A DNA stretch of 14,629 bases from the NCBI GenBank assembly GCA_001786095.1, contig MFVN01000040.1, positions 1 through 14,629 on the forward strand, in the 5' to 3' direction. Below the pieces are notes generated by a model that was given only the letters and a program-made list of their open reading frames with translations, searched no databases and was not told where the DNA came from. The DNA is from Candidatus Nomurabacteria bacterium RIFCSPLOWO2_02_FULL_42_17 (GTDB lineage Bacteria > Patescibacteriota > Minisyncoccia > Phycocordibacterales > MFVN01). Positions 2 to 6,929 of this stretch are shown one piece after another. Each line of letters starts with the position of its first letter. Within the stretch, counting starts at the first letter, position 1. The position numbers and the translations under genes were made by a program.

Positions 2-2830
2 AGCGCCAACATTTCTTCCGATGGTTCCAGTGGCTGGTGCACCGTTCAGATGACGGCCTCCAAGACCGTAACCGCCAGCTTCAAATCTAAGACGAGCTCG
101 ACCAACTATGTCTTGACTGTCAGCAAACAAAGCGTCAACGGAGGCAATGGCACGGTTACCATTTCGCCCACTACCGCCACGTCCTGTGGTTATGGCTGTT
201 TTAATTATCCGGCCGGCGAACGGGTTATTCTTGTCGCCAGTCCAAACTCTGGCTCAACTTTCTCCGGCTGGAGTGGGGATTGCGTAGGTTTGGGTTTAAC
301 CTGCAATGTGACCATGTCTTTGGCCAAGAATGTCATTGCCACCTTTAGCGCAGGCACGACGACAGGGGGAGGAGGAACCCCAGCCGGTTTTTTCAATTTA
401 TCCGTGACTAAACAAGGTTCCGGCGTGGGAACAGTGCGTTCTTTTCCGACCGGTATTGATTGCGGAACCGCCTGTGATGATGATTTTGATTCCGGCGACA
501 ATGTCATACTAACTGTCTTGGCGGATGACTCATCTATTTTTTCCGGCTGGGGAGGGGATTGTTCTGGAACAGGAATAACTTGCACTGTTTCCATGACCGC
601 TACTAAAACAGTTACAGCCAGTTTTGATACAAAAGAAATTTCTGGACCTTCTAATCCCCAACTCAAAACTTTAACTGTATCAAAAGATGGACCGGGTGTT
701 GGTGGTGTTGTTTACAGTTCTCCGCGGGGTATCGCCTGTGGCACTGTTTCTTCCGTTCCGAATGGTATCAATATTGGCCCCTTTAATCCTTTCCCTTGTA
801 CGGCCAGTTTTACCGCGGGTACCTATCTCACCTTGAACGCCTTGCCCGGCCCTATGTCATTTATCTCCGGTTGGGGTGGTTGTAATAATCAGAGTGTTTA
901 TCCTGATGGTTCTGGTTGGTGTTTGGTGCGCATAGACCCAGACCAGACAAACCAAGAAGTTGTTGCTAATTTTGAAGTGGATGTCGCTGGTATTATACGC
1001 ACCGCCGGAGGTATAGTTGGCGCGCTTAACGCCAAAACGGTTGAGGTTAATGTTTCCGGCGGGGGGCAGGGAAAGGTCTGGAGTAATGTTTCTCGTTTGA
1101 CCGGCGGTATGATTAGTTGCGAACCTGACTGCTCGCAGGACTTCACATTTCTCTCCCAGGTGTTTTTACAAGCTATACCTGACTTTGGCTCGGTCTTTGC
1201 CGGCTGGAGTGATTGCAATAGTCAAACTAATTTGTGTGAATTCTCGGCTGGAGGTATAGGTGCTGGCTTTGTAGGTGGGCGAAAAACCGTGGGCGCGCGG
1301 TTTGAATTAGACACCCGCAGATTAACCGTCACACCGCCGGCGACAAATAGCGACAAAGTTACCATCAAGGGGCAGGGAATTGATTGCGGGACTGATTGCC
1401 AAGAAGATTATATTTACAATTCTTTTACTTCTGTGACCGCCACTGCCCAAACAGGTTTTGCTATCACCGGCTGGAGCGGTTGTTCCTCTAGTAATCTTCT
1501 GGCTGGCGGAGGCGGTTATTGTATGGCGAGAATGAATAGAGATATCAATGTTTCTTTTACTGTCGGCGCGAGTAATGTAAGTGGTGTTTCTAAAAGGGAG
1601 TTAGCTATTACGAAAAAAGGCGACGGCGAAGGAGTTTTCTTTACCGCGCCGGTGGGTGCGCCTTGCGCGAACGTGGCGTTAAATTGTTCGGCTTTTAACT
1701 TAGGGCAAACCGTAACTATTCGGGTAATTCCCAATCCCGGATCCAGTCTTTTAAGTTGGTCTGAAACAAATTGTTTAAGTTCAACGACTTGCAATGTTAC
1801 TATGGATACTGACAAGGTCATTGATTTTACTCTTAAAAAGTCCACACCCGCGAACTCGCGCGCCCTGACTGTTACTAAGGTCGGTAATGGCACTGTTTCT
1901 ATTTCTCCTCGTATCGCCACGTCGTGCGGTTACGGTTGTTGGGCTTATCCCGCCGGCACATCGGTTACTCTCACCGCCAGTCCAAGTTCCGCTTTTATAT
2001 CTTGGTCGGGTGCCTGTTCGGGTTCTAACACAACTTGCACCGTTTCTATGGACAGTGATAAATCCGTAACCGCGACTTTCACGGCGACTGGTGGTGGCGG
2101 AGGGGGAGGTGGGGGTGGAACCGGTGGCCTGACACAAGAGCTTGTTGTTGGTTGGCTGACAGAGGCTTCTAATGTTAATGGTGAATACACAGTAGGCACA
2201 AGTGGAACAATTACCTCCATTCCGTCAGGCATTGTTTGTTCTTCAGTGTATTCTTCTTCTCCCCAAAATTCTCCCCCTCCCCAAACAACATCAGTCTGCA
2301 CTTATCGTTTTCCAAAAGATAGTAACGTAACCTTAACCGCGACACCAGATTCAGGTTTTGAGTTTAAGGGATGGACAGGGAGCGATTGTTTAGTTAACGA
2401 AACAAATCCAAGAATCTGCACTATTAAGATGACTGGAGATAAAAATAATAACCTGGCAACTTTTAAACCCACCACTGACGACGATGTGATAAAAGATGAT
2501 GATGTTATAAAAGATACCGACACCATCACTGGCACCAAACTCAAAAACCCCATCAATGTGGACGACTTTCCGTCTTTCATCAGAAAAATACTGGACATAC
2601 TTCTTAAAATAGGCGTGCCAGTCGTGGCAATTTTCATAATTTACTCCGGCTTCCTGTTCGTGTCTGCGCAGGGCAACAGCGAAAAACTCACCAAAGCCCG
2701 CCAAACTTTCCTTTGGACGATTGTCGGCGCGGCGATTATTCTGGGGGCGTGGGTCTTGGCGCAAGCCATCGGCGAGACGGTAGAAGAAATAAGGTCAACA
2801 GTCTTGTCGCTTTACAAGTTTTGGGCGTAG
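2..2830 (+). CDS. Giant cysteine-rich InlB-type repeat protein with pilin-like C-terminus (5' partial)
   Basis: The frame is open from the first bases, so the ATG at 50 is internal and the true start lies outside the window. The visible 943 codons contain one partial and about eight full repeats of roughly 65-110 residues. Each has a strand-rich start (LTVSK-like), paired cysteines, a GWSG/GWGG turn, a C-x-V-x-M segment and a V-x-A-x-F end. This is the pattern of divergent InlB B-repeat/Flg_new domains, which in other bacteria form rigid cell-surface stalks. Cysteines recur at matching places, so intra-repeat disulfides outside the membrane are likely (inference). A ten-glycine linker (2090-2119) and an acidic spacer lead to two hydrophobic helices near the C-terminus (about 2612-2668 and 2711-2773). 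These resemble the T4SS_pilin/TrbC-VirB2 helical pair of the following genes. Probable role: a surface adhesin or stalk anchored in, or assembled with, a pilus-like complex. No enzymatic motif is visible. Stop TAG. Confidence 0.8.
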   Translation, partial: SANISSDGSSGWCTVQMTASKTVTASFKSKTSSTNYVLTVSKQSVNGGNGTVTISPTTATSCGYGCFNYPAGERVILVASPNSGSTFSGWSGDCVGLGLTCNVTMSLAKNVIATFSAGTTTGGGGTPAGFFNLSVTKQGSGVGTVRSFPTGIDCGTACDDDFDSGDNVILTVLADDSSIFSGWGGDCSGTGITCTVSMTATKTVTASFDTKEISGPSNPQLKTLTVSKDGPGVGGVVYSSPRGIACGTVSSVPNGINIGPFNPFPCTASFTAGTYLTLNALPGPMSFISGWGGCNNQSVYPDGSGWCLVRIDPDQTNQEVVANFEVDVAGIIRTAGGIVGALNAKTVEVNVSGGGQGKVWSNVSRLTGGMISCEPDCSQDFTFLSQVFLQAIPDFGSVFAGWSDCNSQTNLCEFSAGGIGAGFVGGRKTVGARFELDTRRLTVTPPATNSDKVTIKGQGIDCGTDCQEDYIYNSFTSVTATAQTGFAITGWSGCSSSNLLAGGGGYCMARMNRDINVSFTVGASNVSGVSKRELAITKKGDGEGVFFTAPVGAPCANVALNCSAFNLGQTVTIRVIPNPGSSLLSWSETNCLSSTTCNVTMDTDKVIDFTLKKSTPANSRALTVTKVGNGTVSISPRIATSCGYGCWAYPAGTSVTLTASPSSAFISWSGACSGSNTTCTVSMDSDKSVTATFTATGGGGGGGGGGTGGLTQELVVGWLTEASNVNGEYTVGTSGTITSIPSGIVCSSVYSSSPQNSPPPQTTSVCTYRFPKDSNVTLTATPDSGFEFKGWTGSDCLVNETNPRICTIKMTGDKNNNLATFKPTTDDDVIKDDDVIKDTDTITGTKLKNPINVDDFPSFIRKILDILLKIGVPVVAIFIIYSGFLFVSAQGNSEKLTKARQTFLWTIVGAAIILGAWVLAQAIGETVEEIRSTVLSLYKFWA
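113..2470 (+). repeat. Eight InlB-B/Flg_new-like protein repeats
   Basis: Approximate repeat limits by reading the translation are 113-346, 397-624, 668-973, 1038-1305, 1319-1560, 1599-1831, 1862-2080 and 2138-2467. A further partial copy ends near 82. Landmarks shared by most copies are a Cys pair in the first half, GW(S/G)G, a Cys before and after the GW turn, and a terminal aromatic strand. Copies 3, 4 and 8 are longer, with insertions between the first cysteines or after the GW motif. Copies 1 and 7 share a TATSCGYGC...YPAG block found in no other copy. Confidence 0.7.
2477..2512 (+). repeat. Tandem 18-bp coding repeat (DDDVIK x2)
   Basis: Two consecutive 18-nt units encode DDDVIK twice, just before the C-terminal membrane segment. 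They differ only at third codon positions. The segment is a charged spacer between the repeat stalk and the membrane helices. Confidence 0.75.
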
Positions 2831-2941: not shown

Positions 2942-2968
2942 TTGTTAAAGTTTTTAATGAGATATAAT
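2942..2968 (+). promoter_or_regulatory. Promoter of first pilin gene, apparently leaderless
   Basis: There is a perfect TATAAT at 2963-2968. A weak -35 (TTGTTA, 2942-2947) lies 15 bp upstream. The ATG at 2975 begins seven bases after the last T of the -10, where transcription would normally start, so the mRNA would have no leader. No SD sequence precedes the ATG. Confidence 0.6.
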
Positions 2969-2974
2969 TTAACT

Positions 2975-3334
2975 ATGTTTAATTTAAGCAAAGTTTTCTC
3001 AAAGATAATATATCTATTAACCATGATTGCGGTCGGTTTGCCATCTGTGGCTCTGGCCGCGCCTAATAACATAAAGGATTTGCTGGATATGTTCACCGAC
3101 CTTCTTATAAACTCGGTTGTTCCTCTGCTTATCGCCGCGGCTATGGTCGTTTTTATCTGGGGTATGATTGAATTTGTAGGCAACGCCGACAACGAGGAAA
3201 AACGCGCCAAGGGCAAGCAATTGATGCTCTGGGGCATAATCGGGTTCTTCGTTATTGTGTCAATTTGGGGGCTGGTCGGGCTTTTTACAAACTTTTTCGG
3301 CGTTCCCAGCGGGATGCCTCGGTTGCCGGAGTAG
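2975..3334 (+). CDS. T4SS-pilin-like small membrane protein 1
   Basis: This encodes 119 residues. The reading frame is open further upstream and could begin at a TTG at 2942. I chose the ATG at 2975 because it gives a clean signal peptide (hydrophobic core about 10-25, AxA-type site at ALA|AP, residues 26-29) and because the -10 box lies just before it. The mature part has two membrane helices (about 48-66 and 84-106) joined by a charged loop, NADNEEKRAKGKQ. Aromatic WG pairs sit in both helices (IWG, LWG, IWG). This layout matches the pilin-like T4SS_pilin/TrbC-VirB2 families common in Patescibacteria. Probable role: subunit of a membrane-embedded or extracellular filament. No cognate secretion ATPase is present in the window, so the machine it serves cannot be seen here. 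Confidence 0.75.
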   Translation: MFNLSKVFSKIIYLLTMIAVGLPSVALAAPNNIKDLLDMFTDLLINSVVPLLIAAAMVVFIWGMIEFVGNADNEEKRAKGKQLMLWGIIGFFVIVSIWGLVGLFTNFFGVPSGMPRLPE

Positions 3335-3342
3335 GGAAATTA

Positions 3343-3425
3343 GCCTCCCCCTGATAAGGGGGAGGTGCCAAGGGCGGAGGGGGTTATATCCAAACCCCTC
3401 CCGGCCTCCCCTTATCAAGGGAGGA
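3343..3425. repeat. GC-rich inverted-repeat element, copies 2 and 3 head-to-head
   Basis: Hairpin CCTCCCCC/GGGGGAGG with loop TGATAA (3344-3365) is followed by GGAGGGGGTT (3376-3385). After about 8 bp comes the inverse AACCCCTCC (3394-3402) and a second hairpin CCTCCC...GGGAGG (3405-3424). The left half is the reverse complement of the right half, so two half-elements face each other. The sequence family is that of the element at 2852-2923. It fills the gap after pilin 1. No real gene is encoded in it; short open frames here are the translated repeat. Confidence 0.75.
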
Positions 3426-3460
3426 GAAAATGCGGGGAAAAACAATATTCACACCCCCCG

Positions 3461-3487
3461 TTGACTGGCTGTTAAGTGTGCTACAAT
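3461..3487 (+). promoter_or_regulatory. Promoter upstream of pilin genes 2 and 3
   Basis: TTGACT (3461-3466), a 15-bp spacer and TACAAT (3482-3487) preceded by TGC give an extended -10 (TGnTACAAT). The short spacer is compensated by the extended -10. Start would be near 3494, leaving a leader of about 64 nt before the ATG at 3558. It lies just past the inverted-repeat element, so pilins 2 and 3 can be expressed apart from pilin 1. Confidence 0.6.
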
Positions 3488-3537
3488 TAAGGCATTATTA
3501 AGAATTTTAAGGTCGTCAATATTAGAAGCTTATAAGG

Positions 3538-3555
3538 TTTATAAAATTTATAAAA
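3538..3555 (+). repeat. Two tandem TTTATAAAA 9-mers before pilin 2
   Basis: A perfect 9-bp tandem duplication lies directly before the ATG at 3558. No SD is visible, so the AU-rich unstructured leader itself may permit initiation. Each unit also holds a -10-like TATAAA. Confidence 0.6.
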
Positions 3556-3557
3556 TT

Positions 3558-3932
3558 ATGAAAAAGTTTATTTCAACTTTGGGCGTGGTCGCGGCGGGTC
3601 TTTTGCCTCTTTCGGTTTTGGCGCAGATCATTGGAGGAACAGGTGGAACTGCGAGCGGCACGCAAGTAACCAGTATTCTTACCCAGGTTCTCACTGTTCT
3701 TAATATCGTCATGCCAATTGTTCTCGGCCTCGGGGTTATCTATTTCATCTGGGGCGTTGTTCAATATGTAACTGCCAAAGACGAGGAGAAAAAGAAAGAA
3801 GGACGAGGCATAATGATTATGGGAATTATTGGTATTTTCATTATTGCTTCCATCTGGGGTTTGGTTGCGCTCATCGCTGGTTTCACTGGTGTTGGACAAG
3901 GTGGCGGTATTTCCAACCCATACACGATTTAA
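3558..3932 (+). CDS. T4SS-pilin-like small membrane protein 2
   Basis: This encodes 124 residues. A signal peptide covers residues 1-22 (MKK start, hydrophobic core, VLA|Q cleavage site). A Gly/Thr-rich mature N-terminus follows, then two membrane helices (about 48-70 and 86-109) joined by a charged loop (AKDEEKKKEGRG). FIWG in helix 1 and SIWGLV in helix 2 match the neighbouring proteins 1 and 3. The tail is Gly-rich. It belongs to the same pilin-like family as its neighbours but has diverged, which suggests a distinct subunit and not a recent copy. It is separated from pilin 3 by 18 bp and is probably co-transcribed with it. No SD is visible. The exact biological role is unknown. Confidence 0.75.
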   Translation: MKKFISTLGVVAAGLLPLSVLAQIIGGTGGTASGTQVTSILTQVLTVLNIVMPIVLGLGVIYFIWGVVQYVTAKDEEKKKEGRGIMIMGIIGIFIIASIWGLVALIAGFTGVGQGGGISNPYTI

Positions 3933-3950: not shown

Positions 3951-4238
3951 ATGAATTTCAGCCTAGTGGCGGTTGCCTATGCCGATTTTGACGCGGTTCT
4001 GCGCAAGGTTAACCAGACCATACTTAACCCGTTAATTGCTCTGCTCTTCGCCGTGGCTTTGGTGATGTTTATTTGGGGCGTGGTGGAGTTTACCGCCAAT
4101 GCCGGCAATGAAGAAAAGCGCACCACTGGCCGTCAGCATATTTTGTGGGGCATAGTCGGGATGATAATAATGATTTCTGTTTTCGGTATAATGCGACTTA
4201 TCACCGGCACTATCGGGTCTGATGTTCCAATTCCATAA
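3951..4238 (+). CDS. T4SS-pilin-like small membrane protein 3
   Basis: This encodes 95 residues, the shortest of the three pilin-like proteins. The N-terminus is a very short hydrophobic stretch ending AYA|D (residues 9-12), which could be a minimal signal peptide. Helices at about 25-46 and 64-86 flank the loop NAGNEEKRTTGRQ, nearly the same as in protein 1 (NADNEEKRAKGKQ). It is therefore closer to protein 1 than to protein 2, even though protein 2 lies between them. It ends just before a hairpin that could terminate the pilin transcript as well as the opposing operon. Family assignment rests on the two-helix architecture and the WG motifs; the machine is not identified. Confidence 0.72.
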   Translation: MNFSLVAVAYADFDAVLRKVNQTILNPLIALLFAVALVMFIWGVVEFTANAGNEEKRTTGRQHILWGIVGMIIMISVFGIMRLITGTIGSDVPIP

Positions 4239-6323: not shown

Positions 6324-6929
6324 ATGAAGAAAAGACATAAAATTTTTAAGCGTGAGGCCGTGCTGGGCTTTCTAGCCGAGGCTGGTATTGCCACATCCGA
6401 AACGATCATAAATTTAGTTACCACAACTGCCCAACTTGGCGCGGCCATGGTTAATTCTCCGGACGTGGCTTCTAGGGCTCTACGCCGTGAAATTGTTCCC
6501 GTCCGTCTGGATAAACTGCGCTCTTTAGCCCGGAATAAAATAAGACTTCATTCTTTACTGTCTAAACTGAAGCGGGAAGGTATGATTAATCGCGTCAAGA
6601 AAGGAGCTTATAACATAACCGAGAAAGGTAGGAAATATCTACTTGAAAAAAAATCCCGTTTTGCTTGGTCTCGTCGTTATACCGTGGAAAAAACGCGCAA
6701 TAATATCTTAACCATTGTTGTTTTTGATGTTCCTGAACATGAACGGGCGAAAAGAGATTGGTTACGTTATGAACTTATACTTATGAGCTTTAAAAAACTC
6801 CAGAACAGCGTTTGGGTCGGGAACTATACATTGCCGTCGGAGTTTATTACCGATCTTCAATCTTACAATATTCTGCCTTATGTTCACATTTTTAGTGTTG
6901 ATAGAAAAGGTACAATCACTGATCAATAA
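6324..6929 (+). CDS. PaaX-like regulator with Cas2-like domain
   Basis: This encodes 201 residues. A winged-helix-like region (about 60-110: LHSLLSKLKREGMINRVKKG..YNITEKGRKYL) is followed by a ferredoxin-fold segment (about 126-195: ILTIVVFDVPEHERAKRDWLR, then SVWVGNY). The latter is the Cas2-like domain found in the central part of PaaX-family repressors. The FDVP motif (134-137) carries the Asp (135) that corresponds to the metal-site Asp of true Cas2 nucleases. In the PaaX family this domain is thought to serve dimerisation or regulation. No other cas gene or CRISPR array is present, so a transcriptional role is more likely. It is short compared with classical PaaX. It is flanked by 28-bp direct repeats and lies between two tRNA genes, an isolated accessory-looking gene. 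No SD; the ATG at 6324 is the first start in the open frame after the A-run. Confidence 0.72.
   Translation: MKKRHKIFKREAVLGFLAEAGIATSETIINLVTTTAQLGAAMVNSPDVASRALRREIVPVRLDKLRSLARNKIRLHSLLSKLKREGMINRVKKGAYNITEKGRKYLLEKKSRFAWSRRYTVEKTRNNILTIVVFDVPEHERAKRDWLRYELILMSFKKLQNSVWVGNYTLPSEFITDLQSYNILPYVHIFSVDRKGTITDQ

Follow-up and report, generated by a model that had tools for sequence, protein, structure and literature searches.

Can a pilus subunit carry a large surface stalk within the same polypeptide? This question is raised by an open reading frame (ORF; ORF lengths given here run from stop to stop) at the start of contig C40 (MFVN01000040.1) of Candidatus Nomurabacteria bacterium RIFCSPLOWO2_02_FULL_42_17, in which cysteine-rich repeats run into a C-terminal two-helix segment that resembles a pilin of type IV secretion systems (T4SS). 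The window analysed here, 14,629 nucleotides in length, is the entire contig C40, and belongs to a 509 kb genome in 46 contigs that is 87% complete. The initial annotation of this DNA, made from the letters without database searches, read the ORF as a stalk built into, or capping, a pilus, perhaps for attachment to a host, and that reading as a whole is partly supported by the analysis described below. We lean, somewhat beyond an even judgment, towards the view that the fused protein is a minor pilin of a VirB2-like (T4SS-type) pilus displaying an adhesin stalk; its identity as a pilin and its slot in a pilin cluster are well supported.

The larger part of the fused protein consists of divergent InlB B-repeats. 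Pfam family PF18998 matched seven stretches of the ORF (E 2.1e-45, 153 bits against a cut-off of 23.6), and division of the ORF by eye gave eight complete repeats and the tail of a ninth (Table 1). The protein has 33 cysteines, exactly four in each complete repeat, one in the tail, and none in the linkers or the pilin part, confirming the eight or more disulfide-capable repeats that had been noticed in the translation. Since the same genome has VKOR and DsbA-like genes that adjoin each other on contig C35, disulfides in the repeats are feasible. Listeria internalin B is the prototype of the InlB B-repeat proteins. The window protein shares the repeat family with these proteins, but differs from them in having four cysteines per repeat, a C-terminal pilin hairpin, and no leucine-rich repeat domain found (no leucine-rich repeat family was among the Pfam matches of the ORF at E up to 1).

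The C-terminus of the ORF matched Pfam family PF18895 (T4SS_pilin) at residues 857-923 with an E value of 1.7e-8 and 34.9 bits against a cut-off of 26.6. Because the three small genes that follow also scored above this cut-off (Table 1), the pilin-like C-terminus beside three small pilin-like genes described by the initial annotation was borne out. We sorted the pilins into classes A, B, and C, which are our own labels and rest on small seed profiles that include sequences from the window and from another contig of its genome, C9. The pilin domain of the window is 43-62% identical to the class B domains of nine relatives, seven of which sit in ORFs of only 132-229 amino acids. When the class B profile was built without the window row, the window protein scored 133.2 bits, the pilin ranked next in the genome, on contig C9, 39.0 bits, and a protein on contig C15 15.7 bits. 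Since the latter two scores are far lower, no pilin of this genome other than the fusion was seen to be a clear member of class B. A structure prediction with the three small proteins had also been suggested; AlphaFold2, run on the C-terminus alone, predicted two long helices, at model residues 147-179 and at 184-232, with a block pLDDT of 85-95, but modelled the stretch of repeat and linker poorly. Taken together, these results support the C-terminus as a T4SS-type pilin domain, as judged from its sequence, and not the generic membrane anchor that the initial annotation had named as the outcome that would count against it.

To place the fusion among its relatives, we used its pilin domain and those of the nine relatives as query against GTDB genomes, and took the best 80 of 160 confirmed matches as loci, with flanks of up to 10 kb on each side. 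Many of the 80 loci are cut by contig ends, and only 28 are at least 20 kb long. Their labels are mostly Nomurabacteria, Kaiserbacteria, Wolfebacteria, Giovannonibacteria, or another Patescibacteria name; some read just 'bacterium', and one locus (L100) is labelled Burkholderiales, perhaps a mislabel. A class B pilin gene is followed by class A in 75 of the 80 loci, so that the neighbouring pilin genes, whose absence from homologues had been named as a point against the initial annotation, are present. Class C stands ahead of class B in 60 of the 80 loci. Upstream of the pilin genes in 73 loci, and on the same strand in all 73, is a gene for a solute-binding protein (SBP_bac_8; such a gene is also at L053 651-1967), which lies between the cluster and gyrA; gyrA itself was found upstream of it in 68 loci. 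All 396 pilin domains of the 80 loci are 54-70 residues long; thus the hairpin has no large insert and extensions lie at its ends. The ends that bear extensions should face outside, judging from the charged loop of the hairpin and from what is known of VirB2. The usual class B pilin is small, with a median of 53 residues before the hairpin as compared with about 900 in the window protein. Across the order, 276 of 297 genomes have a class B match, and among the 150 class B rows listed, seven ORFs reach at least 300 residues, the next after the window's 942 having 405, so that the nine-repeat protein is the longest B-slot case listed.

The initial annotation had called for recovery of the missing 5' end, and a probable start was located on contig C9. 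There, a stub at 257..3 on the minus strand opens with a hydrophobic stretch ending in FSANAQ, which was judged by eye, and not by a signal-peptide program, to be signal-peptide-like. It passes straight from this stretch into a first InlB-like repeat, as far as the sequence goes before the contig end cuts it. Because the only PF18998 matches in the genome at E up to 0.01 are in the window ORF (seven) and in this stub (one, under the cut-off), the stub probably holds the start of the window gene. Directly upstream of the stub is a small standalone class C pilin (PF18895, 31.7 bits), and further upstream are genes for a solute-binding protein and a methyltransferase and gyrA, the last of which was confirmed. 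Read one after the other, the two contigs, which are not joined, give the order gyrA, methyltransferase, solute-binding protein, pilin C, pilin B, and three pilins A. Since this fits the order conserved in the relatives, it is well supported that the fusion represents the class B pilin of the conserved cluster.

Table 1. Positions in the window of the fused gene, its parts, and the small pilin genes that follow it
Feature	Position	Strand	Basis or remark
Fused gene: InlB-B repeat stalk and C-terminal T4SS pilin domain	2..2830	+	942 aa, 5' end open at contig end
R0, tail of first repeat; beginning probably on contig C9 257..3 (-)	2..91	+	1 Cys
Repeat R1, 4 Cys	104..352	+	PF18998 and by-eye division
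Repeat R2, 4 Cys	389..631	+	PF18998 and by-eye division
Repeat R3, 4 Cys, holds an insert	662..979	+	By-eye division
Repeat R4, 4 Cys	1031..1312	+	PF18998 and by-eye division
Repeat R5, 4 Cys	1313..1579	+	PF18998 and by-eye division
Repeat R6, 4 Cys	1595..1837	+	PF18998 and by-eye division
Repeat R7, 4 Cys	1856..2089	+	PF18998 and by-eye division
Glycine-rich linker	2090..2128	+	By-eye division
Repeat R8, 4 Cys, holds inserts	2129..2485	+	PF18998 and by-eye division
Asp/Lys-rich linker ahead of pilin domain	2486..2545	+	By-eye division
Class B T4SS pilin domain, two-helix hairpin with short charged loop	2546..2827	+	PF18895, class B profile, AlphaFold2
Small class A pilin	2942..3334	+	PF18895 48.1 bits, over cut-off
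Small class A pilin	3558..3932	+	PF18895 45.9 bits, over cut-off
Small class A pilin	3951..4238	+	PF18895 37.7 bits, over cut-off

Components of a T4SS were found on contig C15 of the same genome, where VirB4 (CD1110 family, NF045971) scored 364.8 bits against a cut-off of 325, and PrgI (PF12666) 46.7 bits against 27. The same region holds a TrsD-like and a VirB6-like protein, named by position and by eye; the former matched only TraC_F_IV, under the cut-off, and the latter had no match in Pfam or NCBIfam. The pilus-tip protein VirB5 (PF07996) had no match at E up to 1 in this 87% complete genome, and this profile was not over its cut-off in any of 14 control genomes either. With the model of the Mbov_0395 family conjugal pilin (NF045849, cut-off 40), the three class A pilins of the window scored 38.3, 30.7, and 38.5 bits, two of them within 2 bits of the cut-off and all under it; the fused protein scored only 16. 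As a separate observation, a 476-residue protein with a pilin domain in its middle and a C-terminal part of no assigned family is encoded near VirB4 on C15 (L052 3529-4959, minus strand), and the fetched loci L044, L046, L047, L048, and L055 likewise contain a pilin-domain protein together with VirB4.

In the mechanism that we propose, the protein would be exported via the signal-peptide-like start seen on C9, and its approximately nine InlB-type repeats would fold outside the cell, most of them with two disulfides made by the VKOR/DsbA-like pair. The C-terminal hairpin, in keeping with its sequence and its slot, would serve as the cluster's class B pilin, inserted in the membrane. The T4SS motor (VirB4 and PrgI, encoded on the other contig) would pull the fusion into a pilus with the class A and class C pilins. 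The fusion would be the tip or a sparse minor subunit of this pilus, since a stalk of such size would crowd a shaft made of the fusion alone. The stalk would then project outward and bind a partner cell, in the role of a VirB5 tip or of PrgB-type adhesins.

Pilins with extensions are found in relatives as well. At least one pilin gene is extended by at least 150 residues in 22 of the 80 loci (extension lengths start at the first Met codon, include the signal peptide, and are upper bounds). Most of the extended genes belong to class C, in which 15 of 61 genes are extended, at the N-terminus; in class B, 2 of 81 genes are extended. Twenty extended proteins were scanned, 17 of which are in pilin clusters or the B slot. 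A surface-type domain was at or over the cut-off in four of these 17, namely purple-acid-phosphatase-N in L062 and L094, chitobiase-C and Fn3-associated domains in L069, and InlB in L096; in another four (L057, L061, L075, and L100) such a domain was seen only under the cut-off. Three genomes of one family (L147, L148, and L153) have a Cys-rich module in slot B in common. An InlB repeat and a pilin domain occur together in slot B of the window, in slot C of L096, which is the only one of the 374 pilin genes of the 80 loci with an InlB repeat, and outside C-B-A clusters in L037 and L038.

Several observations weigh against a pilus-borne adhesin. The survey of relatives for the same fusion that the initial annotation suggested turned up pilins extended in other ways, but an InlB array in slot B in 0 of the 80 loci. 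Extended pilin genes are thus recurrent, and the exact fusion was found in the window's genome alone. In nine of the 17 extended cluster proteins, no extension domain matched at E 0.01. Pfam revealed neither a lectin nor another binding domain in the window protein, and no domain whose ligand is known. No solved T4SS pilin matched the window protein by sequence, and fold comparison of the two-helix hairpin was uninformative. With the TrbC/VirB2 family of conjugative pilins (PF04956), the fusion has the two-helix pilin in common, but it scored under the cut-off (21.4 against 27.9), and the window's genome had no match to this family at E 0.001. Relatives in the same slot do pass this profile: PF04956 was over the cut-off in 28 of 98 genomes of the order, at least 14 of the 30 over-cut-off rows coincide with class B places listed, and in the relative L122 one B protein is over the cut-off in both PF18895 and PF04956. 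Finally, relatives of VirB4, PrgI, and two further C15 proteins were found in none of the 80 fetched flanks (phmmer, E 1e-5); the link of the pilin cluster to a T4SS is thus not by neighbourhood, and we infer the machine that would assemble the pilus.

The distance of VirB4 from the cluster also favors a membrane-anchored surface protein, in which the two helices of the hairpin persist only to anchor the protein, and the InlB array stands on the cell membrane like any ordinary stalk, with no connection to a filament. We consider this possible but on the unlikely side. Large extensions are common on other pilin-cluster members, as the 22 loci above show, and InlB repeats are joined to hairpins outside C-B-A clusters in L037 (1649 residues) and L038 (718 residues, with the hairpin near the N-terminal end). 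The fetched flanks of these two loci contain no further pilin gene, except that L038 holds two such InlB-hairpin proteins, so the hairpin may serve as an anchor. On the other hand, the window hairpin retains a clear class B sequence by the profile made without the window row, and the fusion occupies the standard B pilin slot in a genome where a second clear B pilin was not seen. Furthermore, 39 of the 41 InlB ORFs examined in relatives are without a pilin domain (40 of the regions with InlB matches were fetched, and in four of them no ORF passed the score filter), and the remaining two, those of L037 and L038, had been fetched for their pilin domain. The hairpin is thus not the usual InlB anchor in these relatives. 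In a hydrophobicity scan of the InlB ORFs, internal helices beyond the signal-like start were seen only in L184 and L195, L192 having one near its cut end. The window hairpin is also not accelerated, since its terminal branch in a tree built from 96 domains has a length of 0.19 as compared with a median of 0.26, and its root-to-tip distance is the seventh shortest. The tree left out five duplicate loci, domains under 78 residues, and ORFs labelled other than B, and one of its tips (L065) is a C gene. Against this argument, long branches (0.38-0.72) occur among the other extended B domains, and the L037 hairpin, outside any cluster, has a terminal branch of 0.97 and yet ranks sixth of the 96 from root to tip. 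Because its root-to-tip distance is equally short, a short branch is weak evidence and leaves pilin and anchor unseparated.

Two further explanations accept less of the proposed function or of the gene itself. InlB B-repeats can act as plain spacer modules, and the fusion could be linked to the pilus as a spacer, lid, or scaffold with no adhesive role, for example as a plug or a wall-spanning collar for extruded A pilins. The lack of a recognised binding domain and the many extensions of other clusters that match no known domain fit this explanation, which we hold to be unlikely. The extensions vary by lineage (Ig-, Fn3-, chitobiase-C-, and InlB-like, and the shared Cys-rich module, several of these matches being under the cut-off), a pattern to be expected of recognition and not of a conserved collar. 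It is also conceivable that the repeats and the pilin come from different genes or genomes and were brought together in assembly, given that the genome is a draft in 46 contigs and that C9 and C40 both end inside the repeat region. Such a chimera is very improbable, because C9 independently has a stalk start in slot B behind pilin C, the C40 stalk runs into pilins B and A, in base composition the repeats fall inside the spread of the other window genes, and other genomes have other extensions in the same slot.

VirB2-like pilin arrays are known in Patescibacteria, and a pilin cluster near virB4 is reported for 1135 of 1948 assemblies (PMC12102498). With the arrays described in parts of PMC12102498 and PMC10633639, the genome of the window has in common PF18895, a multi-gene array, a two-hairpin topology, and VirB4 with PrgI. 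It differs from them in that its cluster is not beside virB4 and in that about 900 residues precede the hairpin; the VirB2-like proteins in those passages are small pilins, and no extensions are mentioned there. VirB5 is the pilus tip in Gram-negative systems (PMC12624023), Gram-positive T4SSs often use adhesins such as PrgB (PMC12857230), and PrgB-like adhesins are reported as absent from the Patescibacteria T4SS dataset (PMC12102498). In the epibiont Southlakia epibionticum, epibiotic growth requires T4SS pilin genes (PMC10633639), and in Paceibacterales that live with methanogens, T4SS pilins belong to the secreted genes with high expression (PMC10936435); in PMC12281837, only type IV pili were found. 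The proposed stalk would have contact of a T4SS with a partner cell in common with VirB5 and PrgB, and it differs from a VirB5 system in that PF07996 is unmatched in its genome. Classical VirB2 is not known to have a large ectodomain, and no report of an adhesin-pilin fusion was found in the literature searched.

If the fusion acts as proposed, it suggests one way in which cells with very small genomes could stay attached to partner cells. A stalk-bearing pilin in a slot that recurs with other extensions would also mean that candidate partner-binding subunits could be found by gene order alone. Tentatively, and with more doubt than for the fusion itself, we suggest that the C-B-A-A-A cluster of Paceibacteria may be a set of fixed subunit slots loaded with lineage-specific adhesin ectodomains, in which case the module for host recognition would sit on the pilus itself. 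If this is true, adhesin-pilins would replace VirB5 and PrgB, and would explain partner finding by a T4SS without known adhesins.

Other features of the pilin clusters and of the window were noted. In 19 of the 80 loci, class A genes have two or three pilin domains in tandem within one ORF (for example, L108 10274-11191 and L119 10268-11176), and neighbouring subunits would then be covalently linked. Between two of the pilin genes of the window is a palindrome-rich element (3344-3424), whose core and its copies with up to 2 mismatches are found at 5 places in the genome and at 0 in the control; the region 3335-3557 has a folding z-score of -4.0 as DNA. At 6324-6926, the window encodes a PaaX-type protein with a central Cas2-like domain (PF20803, E 5.1e-15).

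In relatives, L037 4325-9271 and L038 6789-9713 encode large surface proteins with a C-terminal pilin hairpin outside C-B-A clusters, and a match to an M64-type metallopeptidase is over the cut-off in L037 and under it in L038. Ten InlB-repeat proteins (in L158, L166, L167, L171, L180, L184, L187, which has two, L189, and L193) have [YF]xEF at the extreme C-terminus. Among the fetched ORFs of at least 300 residues, a biased sample since the regions were fetched for InlB, this ending was found in 9 of the 181 that have a signal-like start but no additional membrane helix, in 1 of 94 with both, in 1 of 252 with neither, and in 0 of 53 with a helix only. The [YF]xEF ending is possibly an unnamed C-terminal sorting signal.

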